64,000 nt of DNA from Flavobacteriales bacterium (GTDB lineage: Bacteria; Bacteroidota; Bacteroidia; Flavobacteriales_E; Vicingaceae). The position numbers and the translations under genes are program-made. The stretch spans positions 62,001-126,000 of the forward strand of contig CAJPFH010000003.1 of assembly GCA_905339165.1 (NCBI GenBank), given 5' to 3'. This document shows positions 6,880 to 19,096 of this stretch, one piece after another. The notes beneath the pieces were generated by a model, which searched no databases, was not told the DNA's origin, and saw nothing but the letters and a program-made list of their open reading frames with translations. Position 1 is the first letter of the stretch. Each line of letters starts with the position of its first letter.

Positions 6880-9800
6880 TATAATTCAATTTTTCGTAGG
6901 GTTTTGAAAGGATTGAGATGGGTTAAATTAAGGGTGAACCGAATTTTTTCGCTGTACTTTAACTGATTGGCAGTAGGCGAAATCAATACGGGAAAATAGA
7001 TTTCACAAAACGAAGGAAACACCTGATAGGTTATACCAAGGCAATAAACTAATTCAGTAGCGTCATCAATCAAGTTTCCGGATCGGTCGGCATATTCAAA
7101 GCCCGCAATACCGGCATCGGCATACAAGGCAACTGGTATTTTTGGAAGTGTTGTTGAAAGGTTTATTGCATTTAGCCAACGGTTAAAAGGGGCAAGAGGA
7201 ATCAGGTTTTTAAACCCGCCTTCGTAAAGAGTAAATTGTTGAGAGAAAAAACCATTTGCATTGCGGCCGAGGTATAAATCATCGTACATATAATCGGGGC
7301 GTTGACTGAAAGTATAATTAAATCGGGTATTAGTGTTGTTGTTATATAAAAAACGACCTACAAAAAAGCGAATATTGAAACCTTTGCTCTTTGATTCTTT
7401 ATAACGAAAAAAATAGTTGGCTTCTAAATTGGTTTTAAGCATATTCTCATTTTGCTGAATATTTACCGATGCGTGAAAAGGATTAATGGCATCTGAATTT
7501 TGCAGAGTAAAACGTAATTCGTTTATATAATAATAATTGGTTTTAAAAATATTGATGAGGGTGCCCTGAGCATCAATGAAAGGAATATCCAGCATTTCTT
7601 CGGTTACATTCACGTGCCTTATTAAAAGATGAATGGTGTTTTTATTTCGCGCATCTTGTTTTTTAAATGTTATATCTGCTTCGGGAGCCCATTTAAAATA
7701 GTTAAGGGGGGTTGAGTTAAAAGTGTAATGAGAAAAACTGCGTGCATTAACAGCTAACCTTACCGTCCGAAATAAGGCATTAGGAAAAATAGTGTAGGCA
7801 GCCGAGGCAAAACCTGTGGGAGTTTGCGAACCAAAGGCCCATAACGGAGCAAGAACATACTCTGTTTTTTTCTGAAGAATGGCATTATTATATAAAGCTA
7901 TACCAGCCATAAATCCGTTGTGTTTGTTCCATGCAACCAGTGGGGTGTAATAGAGCTGATTCTTGTGCCCGTTATCAATACTGCCAAGCCATTGTAGCCG
8001 AATAGGTTCTGTTTTTTTGAATAAGCCTTTGGTTCGAATGGTATTGTTTTTTCTAGAGAATTCCAACATATTTTCTTCTGCATCTATTCTCAGTTGTTTA
8101 TAATTTCCTTTTGGAAAAGGAACAAATTCTTTTTTTGCAATACTCTCAAAAGTAACAGTGGTATAGATATGTTCTTTATTTATAGCAGATATAGAAAACG
8201 GAGTTGAAATTTTTCCGCGATTTTTAATTTTAACAAGAAAGAGAGAGGAATCTTCATCGTGTTTTTTTATTCGGCCTATTTTATAGTCTATTTTATAAGT
8301 AGTAGTAAGCAAGTCGTTAAAAAACCAACTTAAGTTTTTGCCGCTTATTTCTTCAAAAACATTTTGTAAGTCTTTTGGATAGGGGTGTTTAAACTTCCAT
8401 CGTTCAAAATACGTTTGCATACATTGGTCAAAAACGGCATCGCCAAGGTAGGTTTTAAGTTGCCAAAAAGCAGCAGCTGTTTTAGAATATACTATGGCTG
8501 CGTAGTTAAAGTGCGTGTAGTTTTGCGATTTTTCTTCAATAGCCTGATCTAAATTTCTGCGAGCCTGAAAGAGATACATGAAATAATATTGAGCCTTATG
8601 TGTATAATCCAAATCAAATAGTTTTTTGAGAAAGGGGGAGGAAGAGTCATTTCCTAAAAGAGACGCATTCGGGTATTTGGTTTCAATGTAACGGAGTTCG
8701 TTGAGGGAGTTGATTCCTTCATCCATCCATGGGTGGTATCTTTCGTTGCTGCCTAAGATGCCGTAAAACCAGTTGTGCCCTACTTCGTGCATGATTACGG
8801 TTTCTAAAGAAAAGGCCGAACCGCTTTTTCCAATTACAGTGATATTCGGGTACTCCATTCCGGCTCCAGCACTTAAAGAGCCATCTACCGCAGTAACTTG
8901 CTGGTAAGGGTAGTCGCCATTCCAGAGTGAATAGTAATAAACGGCATCGTGAAGGTATTCTAAACTTTTCATCCACAAATGAGCTTCTTGGTTGGTAAAC
9001 ATGGCCCATGTAGTAACCGTATTTCCGGAATGGGGTAATTTTACTTCGCCTTTTAGAACGTGGAAACGCTTGTCGGCAAACCACGCAAAGTCGTGTACGT
9101 TTTTTTGATGGTAATGCAGCATTTTTGTTTCACGGACAGAAGGGGGAAAGGACATATCCTTTGAGTTGAAAATGTTGGTTGAAGCAGTAGCAATTGCTTT
9201 TTCGTTTAACCATTGAATTTCTGTTTCTCCGTTGATTAAATCTCCGGTGGCTCCTACTACGTAATTGGCAGGTAATGTAATTTGCACATCATAAGTGCCA
9301 TATTCAGAATAAAATTCGCCTTGGTCGAGGTAGGGCATGGGATGCCAGCCTTGTCTATCGTAAACAGCAGGTTTTGGATACCATTGAGTAATCTGGTATG
9401 ATTGGCCCATGTGTCCAAGACGTGAGTATATTCCTTTTGGAATTTTAACATGAAAGGGTGTGGTAATTTTTATTTTCTCGCCTTGTAGCAGAGGTTCTTT
9501 TAAATACACAATACAAATGTCAATGTGTTCTTCGCTAAATTCCCATTGTAATTTTTCTCCGTTTATTTTAAAATCAAGTTCGTCAATATATCCTCTTTCA
9601 TCGTCTTTAGAAAAGTATAAGGCCGTTTCGCCATTATCGGTAAGTTGTTTACAAAGAGCTGTGGCGTTATTTTTATAGGCGTTTGGCCATAAATGAAAGT
9701 AGATGTAAGAGAGGGCATCGGGCGAATGGTTGATGTATTCTATGGTTTCAACGCCTTTTAGTTCGTGGCGTATATCATCTAATTCAACCTGTATCTGATA

Positions 9801-12662: not shown

Positions 12663-13172
12663 ATGAGATTTTTTGTGAGCTTACTTCTTTCTTTGGCTTT
12701 GCTTTTAACGGGGTGTCATTCTTCCAAAAAAGCCGATAGAAAACAAAAACATAAAACCGAAAGAAGTACAGGCAAAACTGTACCGAAAGAGGCAAATAAA
12801 GTAATTAAAACAGCCCTTACTTACGAAGGAACCAAATATAAGTATGGGGGAATTACCAAAAAAGGCATCGACTGCAGTGGACTGATGTATGTATCTTTTA
12901 AAGAAGCCGGGATAGAATTACCTCGCTCATCGTACGAGCAGAGTAAGAGTTTTAAGGCTATAAAACTGAGCGAGGTGCAAAAGGGCGATTTGGTTTTTTT
13001 TGCTACGGGTAATGATAAAAATAAAATTTCGCATGTGGGATTGGTTATAGAAGTATCTAAAGCAAAAGACATTTATTTTATACATGCCACAACACAGCGG
13101 GGTGTTTGTAAAGATTGGCTTTCGCAAGAGTATTATAAAGAGCGTTATGTAAAAGCGGTAAGGGTGCTTTAA
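12663..13172 (+). CDS. NlpC/P60 (C40) cell-wall peptidase lipoprotein
   Basis: This 169-aa lipoprotein has the lipobox LLTGC (Cys18), a basic linker, and a C40 cysteine-peptidase domain. Its catalytic residues are Cys71 (in DCSGLM), His124 (SHVGLV) and His141 (FIHATT). The family cleaves gamma-D-Glu-diamino-acid bonds in peptidoglycan stem peptides; the lipid anchor puts it on the periplasmic side. It is monocistronic and convergent with arsC, sharing a TTAA that serves as stop codon on both strands. It was found next to the arsenic genes but is probably unrelated to them. Confidence 0.92.
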   Translation: MRFFVSLLLSLALLLTGCHSSKKADRKQKHKTERSTGKTVPKEANKVIKTALTYEGTKYKYGGITKKGIDCSGLMYVSFKEAGIELPRSSYEQSKSFKAIKLSEVQKGDLVFFATGNDKNKISHVGLVIEVSKAKDIYFIHATTQRGVCKDWLSQEYYKERYVKAVRVL

Positions 13173-13555
13173 AAGGTTTGAAATAATTCCTTCACTTTTT
13201 CTGCAATTAAATCACGCACCTTTCTAAATTCATTTTCATTCATATTTTTTGGGTCGGGAATTTGCCAGTCAATTCTTTTTTTTGCAGGCAAATGAGGACA
13301 GTTGTCGCCACAACCCATTGTAACTACGTAATCGTACGTGTCGAATGGAATATCGGTAATGGATTTCGATTGATGAGTGCTAAGGTCGTATCCAATCTCT
13401 TGCATGGCAGCAATGGCTTTCGGATTTATTTTTCCTGAAGGAGAAGAGCCCGCACTAAAGGCCATTATTTTCTCTTTGCCATACATATTGGCAAATGCCT
13501 GAGCCATTTGGCTTCGATTAGAATTTTCTATACAAACAAAAACTATTTTTTTCAT
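13169..13555 (-). CDS. arsC: Arsenate reductase, low-molecular-weight phosphatase fold
   Basis: This 128-aa protein reduces arsenate to arsenite. The P-loop CX5R is at Cys8-Arg14 (CIENSNR), and the redox pair Cys82/Cys86 lies in MGCGDNCP. The three-cysteine layout identifies the thioredoxin-coupled family rather than the glutaredoxin-coupled one. It is the last gene of arsR-arsM-acr3-arsC and follows acr3 by only 4 bp. Its product, arsenite, is the substrate both of the ACR3 exporter and of the ArsM methyltransferase encoded upstream. Confidence 0.93.
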   Translation of the reverse strand: MKKIVFVCIENSNRSQMAQAFANMYGKEKIMAFSAGSSPSGKINPKAIAAMQEIGYDLSTHQSKSITDIPFDTYDYVVTMGCGDNCPHLPAKKRIDWQIPDPKNMNENEFRKVRDLIAEKVKELFQTF

Positions 13556-13559
13556 TTTT

Positions 13560-14591
13560 TTAATATTTCCATTTCAAGGCAATTTTTACAAGACTAAGCA
13601 TAATGGGTACTTCAATTAAAACCCCCACCACCGTGGCTAATGCAGCTCCCGATTCTAAGCCAAACAAAGCAATGGCAACGGCTACGGCTAATTCAAAAAA
13701 ATTGCTGGCACCAATCATTGCAGCAGGAGCACAAATAGGATAAGGTAATTTTAAGAGTTTACCCCCCAGCCAACTAATAAAAAAAATAAAATAGGTTTGA
13801 ATGGTAAGAGGAATGGCAATAAGCAAAATTAGTATGGGATTATCTAAAATCTGCTGTCCCTGAAATGCAAAAAGAAGTATAAGAGTTAATAGCAAAGCAA
13901 ATATTGAAAAAGGTTTTAGTTTTGGCAGAAAAGTGTTGGCAAACCATTCTTTTCCTTTTGTTTTAATTAAATAGTTGTTGGTAATAAATCCGGCCAACAG
14001 AGGTATTACAACAAATACAAGTACCGAGGTAACGAGTACTTCGTAAGGTATTGTAAAATGGGTAATGCCCAATAATAATTGAACGACAGGAATAAAAGCA
14101 ATAAGAATAATTAAATCGTTTAAGGCTACCTGTACCAGTGTATAGGAGGGATTACCCGAAGAAAGATAGGACCACACAAACACCATGGCTGTGCAGGGTG
14201 CAGCCCCGAGTAGAATGGCTCCGGCAATAAACTCGTTTGCTTGTTCAGGGCTAAGCCAAGCTTTGTAAATGTTGCTAAAAAATAACCACGCAAAAAATGC
14301 CATGGTAAAGGGTTTTATAAGCCAGTTGACAATTATGGTAAGGCTTAGTCCTTTAAAATGGCTTCCTGTATTTTTTAAAGAGCCGAAATCAATTTGCACC
14401 ATCATGGGGTAAATCATTAACCAAATTAAAATAGCCACAGGTATATTTACATGATAGATTTCTAAACGAGATATTGAAAGAATATTTTCTCCTGCTATTT
14501 TACCTATAGCTATTCCAAAAGCAATACAGAGCAAAACCCAAAGAGTAAGATATTTTTCAAAAAAACCAATTTGCATTGTTTCTTTTTCCAT
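13560..14591 (-). CDS. acr3: ACR3-family arsenite efflux permease
   Basis: ACR3 exports arsenite (as the thiol-reactive trivalent species) across the cytoplasmic membrane, driven by proton-motive force. The 343-aa protein has about ten membrane segments. The conserved functional cysteine is Cys133 in the fourth helix region LLGAAPCTAMVFVW, and the second-half motif AAMIGASNFFELAVA is also typical of the family. It is cotranscribed with arsM (9-bp gap) and arsC (4-bp gap). No arsA or arsD is present, so extrusion should work without an ATPase. Confidence 0.95.
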   Translation of the reverse strand: MEKETMQIGFFEKYLTLWVLLCIAFGIAIGKIAGENILSISRLEIYHVNIPVAILIWLMIYPMMVQIDFGSLKNTGSHFKGLSLTIIVNWLIKPFTMAFFAWLFFSNIYKAWLSPEQANEFIAGAILLGAAPCTAMVFVWSYLSSGNPSYTLVQVALNDLIILIAFIPVVQLLLGITHFTIPYEVLVTSVLVFVVIPLLAGFITNNYLIKTKGKEWFANTFLPKLKPFSIFALLLTLILLFAFQGQQILDNPILILLIAIPLTIQTYFIFFISWLGGKLLKLPYPICAPAAMIGASNFFELAVAVAIALFGLESGAALATVVGVLIEVPIMLSLVKIALKWKY

Positions 14592-14600
14592 AAAAATGAA

Positions 14601-15440
14601 TTAGCAGCAATTGCCTCCCGGAGCACAGCATGTTTCCGGTTTTTTTGCAAAAACAGTAATGCTGAAAATACCTAGGTTGGATTTTTTTAGTTCATCAATT
14701 TCTTTGTCGGATAAAAAATTAGAAAGAATATCATCGGGGATTATTATTTGTTTTTCGGTTTTTATTTCAATGTTTTTAAAACCTGCATTATCAATAATGG
14801 TTAAATACTCTTCTTTTTGTAAGGCTCCGGAAACACATCCGGCATACATCTCGGCAGCATTTTTTAATGGATTGGGTAGTTCGCCTTTTAACACTACATC
14901 AGAAATACAGAAATGGGCATTCGGTTTAAGTATTCTATAAATCTCGGAAAAGACTTTTTGTTTATCGGGTACTAAATTTAAAACACAGTTGCTAATTACT
15001 ACATCGGCAACATTTGATGTAATGGGTATTTTTTCAATATCACCCAAACGAAATTCTACATTATTAAAGTTTAGTTTTTCGGCATTTTCTCTTGCTTTAT
15101 TTATCATGGTTTCGGTCATATCAATCCCAATAATTTTACCTGTTTCGCCAGTGATTGCCCTGGCCACAAAGCAATCGTTTCCGGCTCCGGAACCTAAGTC
15201 AACCACTGTGTCTCCTTTTTTAATACCGGCAAATTGTGTGGGAATTCCGCAACCTAAGGCAAGGTCGGCATCGGGGTTATAGCCTTCCAGTTTAGTGTAA
15301 TCTTCGCTGAAAATGGAATAATCTACAGTAGAACAGCCGCCCACTCCACAGCAAGAGGATGCATTTTCTGGTTTTGATTGCTGTGCAATTTGGGAGTAAA
15401 TCTCTTTTACAACTTGTTTTATTTCTTCATTCGTTTTCAT
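14601..15440 (-). CDS. arsM: Arsenite S-adenosylmethionine methyltransferase
   Basis: ArsM methylates trivalent arsenic to mono-, di- and trimethyl forms using SAM. The 279-aa sequence shows motif I, DLGSGAGND at 81-89, and the three conserved catalytic cysteines: Cys64 (LGCGIPT), Cys152 (NCVLNLV) and Cys202 (AGCVSG). Extra cysteine clusters occur near the N-terminus (SSCCGVGGC) and at the very C-terminus (CCAPGGNCC); terminal Cys pairs like these are common in the family and may help capture arsenite. It is the second gene of the ars operon. With ACR3 in the same operon, the cell has both export and methylation routes. Confidence 0.95.
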   Translation of the reverse strand: MKTNEEIKQVVKEIYSQIAQQSKPENASSCCGVGGCSTVDYSIFSEDYTKLEGYNPDADLALGCGIPTQFAGIKKGDTVVDLGSGAGNDCFVARAITGETGKIIGIDMTETMINKARENAEKLNFNNVEFRLGDIEKIPITSNVADVVISNCVLNLVPDKQKVFSEIYRILKPNAHFCISDVVLKGELPNPLKNAAEMYAGCVSGALQKEEYLTIIDNAGFKNIEIKTEKQIIIPDDILSNFLSDKEIDELKKSNLGIFSITVFAKKPETCCAPGGNCC

Positions 15441-15476
15441 AGTATTTAAATTTAAAGTTATATTATGACTTAATAA

Positions 15477-15806
15477 TTAGCAACACTTTTTAATGGGTTT
15501 TAATTGACTCAAAAGATGGTTTATTCGTTCCGAAAATTCCTGCCAAACATCAGTATTAATACAGTAACAAACTGTTGTGCCCGAAATGTTTCCCTTAATA
15601 ATTCCCGCTTCTTTTAGCTCTTTTAAATGTTGCGAAACAGTAGATTGAGAAAGAGGCAACTCATTTACAATATCTCCACAAATGCACGTGTTCTTGGAAA
15701 GTAGCAACTCAATGATAGCGATACGAGCAGGGTGCGAAAATGCTTTTGACAATTGGGCTAATCGGTTTTTTTTAACGGTAAAGTATTCGGTTTTTGATAT
15801 TCCCAT
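15477..15806 (-). CDS. arsR: ArsR/SmtB-family arsenic-responsive repressor
   Basis: This 109-aa winged-helix repressor has its recognition helix around residues 53-66 ([12 protein letters not shown]). A CxC pair (Cys41/Cys43, TCICGD) in the alpha-3 region corresponds to the metalloid-binding site of classical ArsR proteins. Further cysteines are at 80/82 and at the C-terminal end (KKCC), as in variant ArsR sensors with additional Cys ligands. It is the first gene of the leftward ars operon. A near-perfect palindrome 12 bp upstream of its start codon is a plausible operator. The porin gene diverges from it, so ArsR might influence both directions. Confidence 0.93.
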
Positions 15807-15930: not shown

Positions 15931-17139
15931 ATGAAAATAATATTTATTTTACTATTTACCATACCGTTGGTTTTACATTCACAAAACGATTCCTTAACGA
16001 AGCAGCCGGTACCTAAGCCGGAAAAGAAAAACTGGTACGAAAGCATAGAAGTGCGGGGTTATGTACAGGTTAGGTATAATAGGTTGTTGGAAACAAATTC
16101 TAATTTAGGTTGCGAACAGTGCGATAAAAGTTGGGGAAACAATAATAGTTTATTTATGAGGCGAGCTCGACTTATATTTTATAGTCAGGTAAGCAAGCAG
16201 GTGTATTTCTATATTCAACCCGATTTCGCAAGTTCGGTTTCTTCTTCCTCCTTAAACTTTGGTCAGCTCCGTGATGCCTACTTTGATATAGGCTTAGATA
16301 AGGAGAATGTATTTCGCTTTAGAATAGGTCAAAGCAAAGTGCCTTATGGTTTCGATAATTTACAATCAAGTCAAAGTAGGTTGCCTTTGGACCGTAGCGA
16401 TGCGTTAAATAGTGCGGTTTCTAATGAAAGAGATTTGGGTGTGTTCTTTTATTACACGCCTAAAAATGTGCAATTGTTGTTTAAAGAAATTTCAAAGGGA
16501 GGGTTAAAGCATTCGGGCAATTACGGATTATTTGGAATAGGTGCTTATAACGGGCAAACCGCTAATAAACCCGAACTTAATAATGAACAACACGTAGTAG
16601 CTCGACTAACTTATCCCTTTAAAGTAGGTTCTCAAATAATAGAGTCGGGTATTCAGGCCTACCACGGAAACTTTGTGATACCCGCATCGCAACTAAGCCC
16701 GGGTGTAAAATTTAAAAAAGGAGCGAATTATATAGACCAGAGAGCGGCAGCCAGCCTGATGCTCTACCCAAAACCATTCGGAATTCAGGCAGAATACAAT
16801 GTAGGCTATGGGCCTGAATTTAACAAGCATACCGATTCTATAGAAGTGAAAAGGCTTGAAGGAGGATATGTTACCCTCTCTTGCAAACTAGATATAAAAA
16901 ATCAAATCATTATTCCTTTTACTCGAATACAATACTATAGTGGGGGCAAAAAACACGAAACAGATGCACGAAGTTATAAGTTAAACGAGTACGAATTTGG
17001 AATTGAATGGCAACCGGGTAAAAATTTTGAATTAGTGGCCATGTACACAATCTCCGGCAGAAAATATGAAGATTTTATAAAACAGGATAATTTTCAGGAA
17101 GGGCAATTACTAAGGCTTCAGGCACAGGTTAATTTTTAA
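15931..17139 (+). CDS. Phosphate-selective porin O/P-like outer-membrane protein
   Basis: This 402-aa exported protein has a signal peptide (residues 1-17) and a 16-18-strand porin pattern ending in the typical C-terminal strand (RLQAQVNF, terminal Phe). The segment FMRRARLIFYSQVSKQVYFY and the following FGQLRDAYFD match the OprO/OprP (Porin_O_P) family of anion or phosphate-type porins. It is the first of four rightward genes that all look connected with phosphate uptake across the envelope. It diverges from arsR and is preceded by a Pho-box-like repeat. Porin_O_P membership does not by itself prove phosphate specificity. Confidence 0.85.
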   Translation: MKIIFILLFTIPLVLHSQNDSLTKQPVPKPEKKNWYESIEVRGYVQVRYNRLLETNSNLGCEQCDKSWGNNNSLFMRRARLIFYSQVSKQVYFYIQPDFASSVSSSSLNFGQLRDAYFDIGLDKENVFRFRIGQSKVPYGFDNLQSSQSRLPLDRSDALNSAVSNERDLGVFFYYTPKNVQLLFKEISKGGLKHSGNYGLFGIGAYNGQTANKPELNNEQHVVARLTYPFKVGSQIIESGIQAYHGNFVIPASQLSPGVKFKKGANYIDQRAAASLMLYPKPFGIQAEYNVGYGPEFNKHTDSIEVKRLEGGYVTLSCKLDIKNQIIIPFTRIQYYSGGKKHETDARSYKLNEYEFGIEWQPGKNFELVAMYTISGRKYEDFIKQDNFQEGQLLRLQAQVNF

Positions 17140-17216: not shown

Positions 17217-17969
17217 ATGAACGAAAAAATGTCTGCATCACAAAAAACCCAGCTATTAAAAAAGCGGTTAAAAACAAGAACTATTGTATTAAATACAATA
17301 GCCGAATTTATAGCGAGTACAATATTTTCTTTGTTGTACTTTGTTTTTATAAGCAGGTATCTGGCCGAAGAATACGATATAAATTATATTATGCTTTCGT
17401 TTGGTATTGGCTTGGCCTTTTTTGCAGCTATTTATATTCCGTTTCATACATATCGAATACATATTATTCCATTTATAACTTTAATTACAGCACTACGAAA
17501 GAGAAAACCTATCATTTTGCTTCATAAAATACCGGCTCAGTTTTTAGGGGCTTTTTTAGGGGTGATACTTTTTAATGTAATCAATGCACATACCACAAGA
17601 GTAAACATTGAAAATTTTCAGTTAATCTACTTAAATGATCATTTATTACTGATTGCTATCAACTCATTTGCAGCAGCTCTTTTGTGTTATATGTTTTACA
17701 TGATTCGCGTTTTGTTTAACTCCCGGCAATTAACCGGAACTATTTACTTAAGTCTTTTTTATGCCGCGTTGTTTGCTCTCACTTCTGTGTTTGCCAATAC
17801 TTCGTCATTGAACCCATTCGGGTACTTTTTTTACGATTTGTTAGGTCAGCAAACTATAAATAATACTTCATTTATTGAAATTATTGCAACACATGTATTA
17901 GCTCCAATAACAGCTGTTGCATTATTGTTTTTTTATGTAAAACCATTGGCATTAAACCAATCAAAATAA
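17217..17969 (+). CDS. Divergent aquaporin (MIP)-fold membrane protein with degenerate NPA motifs
   Basis: This 250-aa integral membrane protein is of unrecognised specificity. Six membrane helices (about 24-46, 58-78, 105-123, 141-166, 172-194, 219-242) and two re-entrant-like loops follow the major intrinsic protein pattern. The first loop, IHIIPFITL (81-89), aligns with the aquaporin AHxNPAVTL box, giving Ile-Pro-Phe in place of Asn-Pro-Ala. The second, SLNPFGYF (197-204), aligns with the second box, giving Asn-Pro-Phe. A TM1 glutamate (Glu30) and the TM3 QFLGAFLG segment also fit. It has its own Pho-box-like site and lies between a porin and a PiT-like gene (9-bp gap to the latter). Arsenite, water or a small solute could be carried, or the altered selectivity filter may exclude water. 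The MIP assignment is by eye. Confidence 0.6.
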   Translation: MNEKMSASQKTQLLKKRLKTRTIVLNTIAEFIASTIFSLLYFVFISRYLAEEYDINYIMLSFGIGLAFFAAIYIPFHTYRIHIIPFITLITALRKRKPIILLHKIPAQFLGAFLGVILFNVINAHTTRVNIENFQLIYLNDHLLLIAINSFAAALLCYMFYMIRVLFNSRQLTGTIYLSLFYAALFALTSVFANTSSLNPFGYFFYDLLGQQTINNTSFIEIIATHVLAPITAVALLFFYVKPLALNQSK

Positions 17970-17977
17970 TATAGTAT

Positions 17978-19096
17978 ATGAGCAAATTAAGTTTGGCATC
18001 ACAAATTATAGGTGATAAAAGGTATCAGTCTTTAATATTATTCGGACTCCAAGAAAAAACTTTTTTGCGTTTGCTGGCCGCCTTTTTAGTAATTGCAGCC
18101 ATATTTTATCCATACCCACAAATTGCCATGTGGATAGGCTTTATGTTTGCCGGATATTCTGCCATTGCGAATGATTCCATTCAAACTATAGGAACTTTTA
18201 TTGCATCAAACCCAAAAACAAAATGGTGGAAATTATGGCTGTGGATTGGGGGAATCTTTGTGTTAACAGTTCTGTACAGTTGGATAAAGTATGATGGAGA
18301 TGTTTCATTTCAACGGCTTTCTTCTAAAGGATTCACTGAGTCGCCTACCTCCTTTCATTTTTTTCAGGTGGTAGCTCCTATTGTGCTTTTATTTATAACG
18401 CGTTTGCGAATGCCTGTTTCTACCACTTTTATGTTATTAAGTTGCTTTAGTTCTAGTGCGTCAGGAATAATTGGTGTACTAGAAAAAAGTTTATACGGGT
18501 ATTTAATAGCGTTTACGGTTGCCATATTATTTTGGTATTTTCTTGCCGGAGCTATTAAACGTTTAACCAGCGGAGAGCCTCATCCTATTTGGATAGTTAT
18601 CCAATGGATTATTAGTGGTTGGCTTTGGAGTATGTGGATAACACACGATGCGGCTAATATTGCCATATTCTTAAACAGGCAGTTAACACTTAACGATTTT
18701 ATCTTTTTTGCATCATTTATCTTTTTTGGTTTAGGCCTATTGTTTTATTTACGAGGCGATAAAATTCAGCGAATCGTATCGGAAAAATCGCAAACCAGCG
18801 ATGTAAGAGGAGCTACGGTTATCGATTTTGTGTATACCATTATTATGTTTGTATTTGCCGAGTGGAGCAAAATACCCATGAGTACTACTTGGATATTTTT
18901 AGGATTATTAGGAGGAAGAGAATTAGCCATGCAGCTTTCTAAAATTTCGGAAACCAACAGAACTCTTGCGGGTACTTTATCTATTCTTGGTAAGGATATA
19001 ATATTTGCTGTTTTAGGATTAATAATTTCCATCGCTCTTGCTATTTCCGTTAATACTACAATACAAACTGAATTAATGCAATACTTCGGTATTTAA
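17978..19096 (+). CDS. Divergent PiT-family (inorganic phosphate transporter-like) membrane protein
   Basis: This 372-aa multi-pass protein shows the two-fold PiT repeat in weakened form. Half one has GYSAIANDSIQTIGTF (59-74, compare GxNDxANxxGT) and MPVSTT (145-150). Half two has THDAANIA (222-229) and IPMSTT (299-304). Classical PiT proteins cotransport phosphate or metal-phosphate with H+ or Na+. Here the GANDVAN-type motifs are altered (THDAAN instead of HGANDVAN), so the ion or substrate may differ. It sits between the MIP-like gene and a Na/Pi cotransporter gene (18-bp gap), in an apparent operon. Confidence 0.75.
   Translation: MSKLSLASQIIGDKRYQSLILFGLQEKTFLRLLAAFLVIAAIFYPYPQIAMWIGFMFAGYSAIANDSIQTIGTFIASNPKTKWWKLWLWIGGIFVLTVLYSWIKYDGDVSFQRLSSKGFTESPTSFHFFQVVAPIVLLFITRLRMPVSTTFMLLSCFSSSASGIIGVLEKSLYGYLIAFTVAILFWYFLAGAIKRLTSGEPHPIWIVIQWIISGWLWSMWITHDAANIAIFLNRQLTLNDFIFFASFIFFGLGLLFYLRGDKIQRIVSEKSQTSDVRGATVIDFVYTIIMFVFAEWSKIPMSTTWIFLGLLGGRELAMQLSKISETNRTLAGTLSILGKDIIFAVLGLIISIALAISVNTTIQTELMQYFGI

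Follow-up and report, generated by a model that had tools for sequence, protein, structure and literature searches.

An aquaporin-fold protein with replaced pore residues, encoded directly upstream of a PiT-like transporter, as a candidate partner in phosphate uptake

In a 64,000-nucleotide stretch of a Flavobacteriales genome (the window), one gene encodes a far-diverged relative of the aquaporins, within the MIP superfamily, and its pore-altered product most likely serves in phosphate uptake as a membrane protein dedicated to the PiT-like transporter whose gene follows. This is the best explanation of the data as a whole, and it is held with about as much confidence as doubt. MIPs are regarded as channels that work on their own and are recognized by the Asn residues of two NPA boxes and by the Arg of the selectivity filter. 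The clade considered here has kept the fold scaffold and dropped the pore chemistry, in lockstep with one transporter subfamily. The features of the locus, numbered from the first nucleotide of the window, are as follows.

13169-15806, minus strand: arsR-arsM-ACR3-arsC, a complete ars operon that lies about 0.1 kb from the porin gene and is divergent to it
15931..17139, plus strand: gene for a porin O/P (phosphate-selective, PF07396), upstream, 77 bp before the MIP-like gene
17217..17969, plus strand: MIP-like gene (P0001), encoding a membrane protein of 250 aa with six helices and two half-helices
17460..17483, plus strand: codons of box 1, residues 82-89 (HIIPFITL), located from alignments; the half-helix 85-94 begins here
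17805..17825, plus strand: codons of box 2, residues 197-203 (SLNPFGY), located from alignments; half-helix 200-210
17978..19096, plus strand: gene for the PiT-like transporter, which is the constant partner; it starts 8 bp past the MIP-like stop codon
19115..20809, plus strand: gene for a Na/Pi cotransporter with a C-terminal PhoU domain, following the PiT-like gene

The reading frame of the MIP-like gene runs uninterrupted from an ATG start to a stop at 17967-17969, and the opposite strand carries many stops. As the preliminary description had reported from the letters alone, the product displays a six-helix, two-loop pattern, a Glu in TM1 (E30), the TM3 segment QFLGAFLG (residues 108-115) and two box-like motifs. 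Compared with the canonical H-x-N-P-A-V-T-L, box 1 retains its proline (Pro85) and carries Ile84 in place of Asn and Phe86 in place of Ala, while box 2 retains Asn199 and Pro200, has Phe201 in place of Ala and is followed by Gly202 where the filter Arg would stand. The earlier claim that both NPA motifs are altered is confirmed, with the refinement that box 1 has lost both its Asn and its Ala, and box 2 loses Ala alone and keeps its Asn in every homologue. Beyond what had been described, the protein has lost not only the filter Arg but also the Glu of TM4, now Asn149. This pattern is not a matter of chance, since it is common to 14 homologues, whose genes show dN/dS values of 0.05-0.09 between close pairs.

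Homology to the MIP superfamily emerges once relatives of the window protein are brought in. Single-sequence searches of Pfam and of PDB sequences with the window protein return nothing significant, and TIGR00861 gives a weak match (E 0.0038, 17.1 bits) that is below its curated cut-off of 171 bits. The same profile matches three of eight members of the clade (best 9.6e-5). The homologue in genome G023 matches PF00230 across positions 2-216 of its 222 residues (7.5e-5), at 23.4 bits, just under the curated cut-off of 25 bits, and it is the best homologue in this respect. With these scores under the curated thresholds, the clade is best filed as a diverged relative of MIPs and not as a member of a curated family. 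When 12 MIP-like homologues are aligned as a profile with 10 canonical MIPs, the alignment spans 200 columns with both boxes in register, at a score of 48.6 (E 1.7e-6) and an identity of about 19 %; reversed and column-shuffled decoys reach 10-18 in the same comparison. Together with the G023 match, this score extends the sequence-profile homology over the whole length of the protein. An AlphaFold2 model built from a 12-sequence alignment is of low confidence (pLDDT 61, pTM 0.60), but its six long helices follow one another as in aquaporins, and half-helices 85-94 and 200-210 come directly after the boxes. All of the 50 PDB matches listed for this model are aquaporins (Foldseek probability 1.00, best E 1.3e-3, TM about 0.5). 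The MIP homology of the clade is well supported, and the atomic detail of the model is not leaned on.

The preliminary description had named profile comparison and structure prediction as ways to check its MIP assignment, and a different fold, such as FNT, as the result that would overturn it; both approaches agree with the assignment, and no such fold appeared among the matches listed. That the protein might have another six-helix fold, of an FNT or a DUF family, and only resemble a MIP is an improbable reading. The low confidence of the model and the empty single-sequence Pfam search leave it some room, but the fold matches listed are aquaporins throughout, Pfam scans of the MIP-like proteins contain no FNT, and decoys fall far short of the full-length alignment. 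The FNT family and other folds were rejected on these grounds. Profile comparison of the N- and C-terminal halves detects no internal repeat, and searches of plasmids and PHROGs yielded no relatives. Against a viral fold library, the one noteworthy match was M1GXH3, which carries no name.

The 14 distinct homologues all come from the same Bacteroidota class, and were drawn from the window's own order, two further families (f5 and f10) and a Crocinitomicaceae MAG. Placed in a tree together with canonical MIPs, they form one group on a long branch, the separate clade for which the preliminary description had suggested looking. Seven residues at recognizable MIP positions are invariant in all 14, namely E30, G65 (TM2), P85, Q108 (TM3), N199, P200 and P230 (TM6), and these include the TM1 Glu and both box prolines; TM2 Gly, TM3 Gln, TM6 Pro and the box prolines are conserved packing positions of MIPs (PMC3111385). 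The residues that line the pore have fared differently. In every member Ile or Leu takes the place of the first-box Asn, and Phe, Leu or Val that of the Ala in the same box; the second box invariably reads NPF, the filter Arg is replaced by Gly or Ala throughout, and the TM4 position is always Asn149. The clade thus lacks two hallmarks of orthodox aquaporins and aquaglyceroporins, an Asn in both boxes and the Arg of the ar/R filter. With packing residues invariant and pore residues replaced in all 14 proteins, the core of the fold is constrained and the pore chemistry exchanged. It is reasonable to predict that the ordinary water/glycerol pore would not conduct, given Ile84, the pair of Phe86 and Phe201 at the centre and the missing filter Arg.

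The loss of pore-lining residues might also suggest a decaying aquaporin gene that no longer has a function. This reading has next to no probability, as dN/dS is 0.05-0.09 in several close pairs, 29 residues are invariant across the 14 homologues from several families, and neither frameshifts nor stops occur. The low dN/dS shows that a function is maintained, and the pseudogene reading was rejected on that basis.

A pointer to what that function may be is the neighbouring gene. The MIP-like gene lies directly upstream of a PiT-like gene in 14/14 loci; the spacing ranges from -8 to +41 bp, and in two loci the reading frames overlap. This set was gathered mostly via the MIP-like gene, so that exceptions in unsampled families are possible. 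Given this pairing, the MIP-like protein probably works with the transporter and not as an ordinary water channel. The paired proteins make up a single branch (100/100) in a tree of 38 PiT-like sequences, and the main branching order is common to the MIP-like and PiT-like trees. PiT-like relatives occur in 52 of 395 genomes of the phylum; those outside the paired branch have no MIP-like neighbour, and the loci without a MIP-like gene that were inspected are surrounded by unrelated genes. Within the window's order the PiT-like gene is found in 16 of 46 genomes, and its close subfamily is found in nine, which are exactly those with the MIP-like gene. An N-terminal motif, IGx[KR]RY (IGDKRY in the window protein), is present in all paired PiT-like loci and absent from 36 unpaired loci. 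Since the paired proteins all belong to one clade, the sharing of this motif may stem from descent and not from docking.

As judged from sequence, the partner is probably a remote relative of the PiT phosphate transporters of PF01384. It resembles them in its N-D and STT motifs and in a remote profile match, and differs in falling under the Pfam cut-off and in having a model without a matching solved structure. The PF01384 profile matches 6 of 22 members (best 5.3e-5), and the window member scores 14.2 bits against a cut-off of 33.7, while an hhalign comparison gives 37 over half the length, compared with 24.8 for a reversed decoy. The model of the partner (pLDDT 77) matched no solved structure and had no PiT among its PDB matches, so its assignment draws on the motifs and on weak profiles. 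Members of the PiT-like family (L041-L069, L087-L093) are about 370 aa long and share invariant ANDSIQ and MPVSTT/PMSTTW motifs, and most of them score under the cut-off of the Pfam PHO4 family. In the window genome as a whole, nothing matches PF00230 and canonical PF01384 proteins are absent.

The wider neighbourhood is rich in phosphate genes. In keeping with the preliminary description, the MIP-like gene sits between a porin gene and the PiT-like gene. The Na/Pi-PhoU gene lies downstream of the pair in all nine long loci, and a PF07396 porin O/P, of which there are two sequence types, lies upstream in seven of the nine. A Pst operon is found upstream in loci L020 and L023, in the latter between the porin and the MIP-like gene, while L026 has neither a porin O/P nor a Pst operon upstream. 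In L020, phoU and the MIP-like gene are also separated by a gene on the other strand (6969-7781) that resembles one for a voltage-gated potassium channel. A scan for promoters and terminators did no better than shuffled sequence.

In the window, the divergent arsR-arsM-ACR3-arsC operon close to the porin gene invites another reading, in which the MIP-like protein would be an arsenite or methylarsenical channel of that operon, like AqpS of Sinorhizobium. This is very unlikely. The operon adjoins the locus only in the window and in the sister genome L019, both of one genus, and ars genes are not found beside the MIP-like gene in the other eight long loci. AqpS of Sinorhizobium meliloti is likewise a bacterial MIP near ars genes, but the ars-operon MIPs surveyed keep both NPA boxes and serve as the sole arsenic transporter of their operon, in the absence of ACR3 or ArsB (PMC4435449), whereas the window has an ACR3 gene in the operon and altered boxes in the MIP-like protein. 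The conserved boxes and constant ars neighbourhood without ACR3 or ArsB that characterize genes of the AqpS type are thus not shared by the MIP-like gene. Arsenite or an arsenical, which the preliminary description had put forward as a solute, is therefore disfavoured, the constant elements being the PiT-like partner and, in the long loci, the phosphate genes.

A partner role in phosphate uptake would then work as follows. The MIP-like protein, which has retained its helix-packing core and exchanged the residues of a water/glycerol pore, would act as an accessory or regulatory subunit of the PiT-like transporter. The two proteins would touch, possibly via the N-terminal IGx[KR]RY segment that is peculiar to paired transporters, and the module would take up phosphate as its putative substrate. 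The suggestion in the preliminary description of a role as a scaffold fits the gene pairing best of its ideas, although contact with the PiT-like protein is itself conjectural. In a more specific version, put forward tentatively and at somewhat less than an even chance, an aquaporin fold without a pore of its own would have become an obligate subunit of a secondary (phosphate) transporter; the two would form a MIP-PiT complex in which the IGx[KR]RY segment serves for docking. If true, this might be an instance of a transporter taking on a channel fold as its subunit.

Alternatively, the protein may still be a channel, whose changed pore passes some other small solute or ion needed beside phosphate uptake, e.g. 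Na+, H+, an anion or a small neutral compound; this has an appreciable probability, albeit a minority one. The fold is retained under strong purifying selection, and a gene for a Na+-dependent Pi transporter lies in the same gene run. The NPA region and the filter Arg reportedly keep out protons and cations (PMC4150397; PMC8355241), so their loss could open the pore to ions, and AQP2 of Trypanosoma brucei, which has no filter Arg and boxes reading NSA and NPS, is linked to the uptake of a large drug, pentamidine (PMC4150397). However, the residues at the box centres are bulky (Ile or Leu, and Phe, Leu or Val), the lost Asn has no polar substitute, and the constant neighbour points to phosphate alone, a charged solute and a large one by the standards of a MIP pore. 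This channel reading is the main rival to the partner role.

Comparison with known MIPs places the clade apart from those that also depart from the standard pore. In common with AqpZ, AqpM, GlpF and their relatives (PF00230, TIGR00861), it has the helix order, the two half-helices, the TM1 Glu, TM2 Gly, TM3 Gln and TM6 Pro, the box prolines and the second-box Asn, but it lacks the first-box Asn, both Ala residues and the filter Arg, and has Asn for the TM4 Glu. Diverged boxes are already known in SIPs, AQP11/12, algal MIPs and TbAQP2. The superaquaporins and SIPs (AQP11/12, plant SIPs) and the algal MIPB and MIPC proteins resemble the clade in non-standard boxes, a diverged or missing filter Arg and long branches (PMC3111385), but these change mainly the Pro or Ala of a box, whereas here the first-box Asn is lost in all members and both Ala positions are bulky. 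In the algal MIPCs, moreover, the TM2 Gly, TM3 Gln and TM6 Pro are altered, all of which this clade keeps. Some members of the fungal delta-subgroup of aquaglyceroporins replace the first-box Asn with Ser or His (PMC4236510); those substitutes are polar and confined to some members, in contrast to the Ile or Leu found in all members here, and the fungal channels keep the filter Arg. TbAQP2 shares the absent filter Arg and altered boxes (PMC4150397; PMC8355241), yet it retains the first Asn and is a eukaryotic aquaglyceroporin tied to drug uptake. The open-access papers searched describe no bacterial clade whose first Asn has given way throughout to a branched hydrophobic residue, with bulky residues at both Ala positions and one co-inherited transporter, which is no proof of absence. 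The clade may serve as a natural test of what the NPA Asn residues and filter Arg are for, the fold or selectivity. Finally, the MIP-like proteins of family f5 (L010 1414-2190, L096 and L097) have the box-1 His replaced by Asp and possess a common C-terminal tail ending in FKNYDV.
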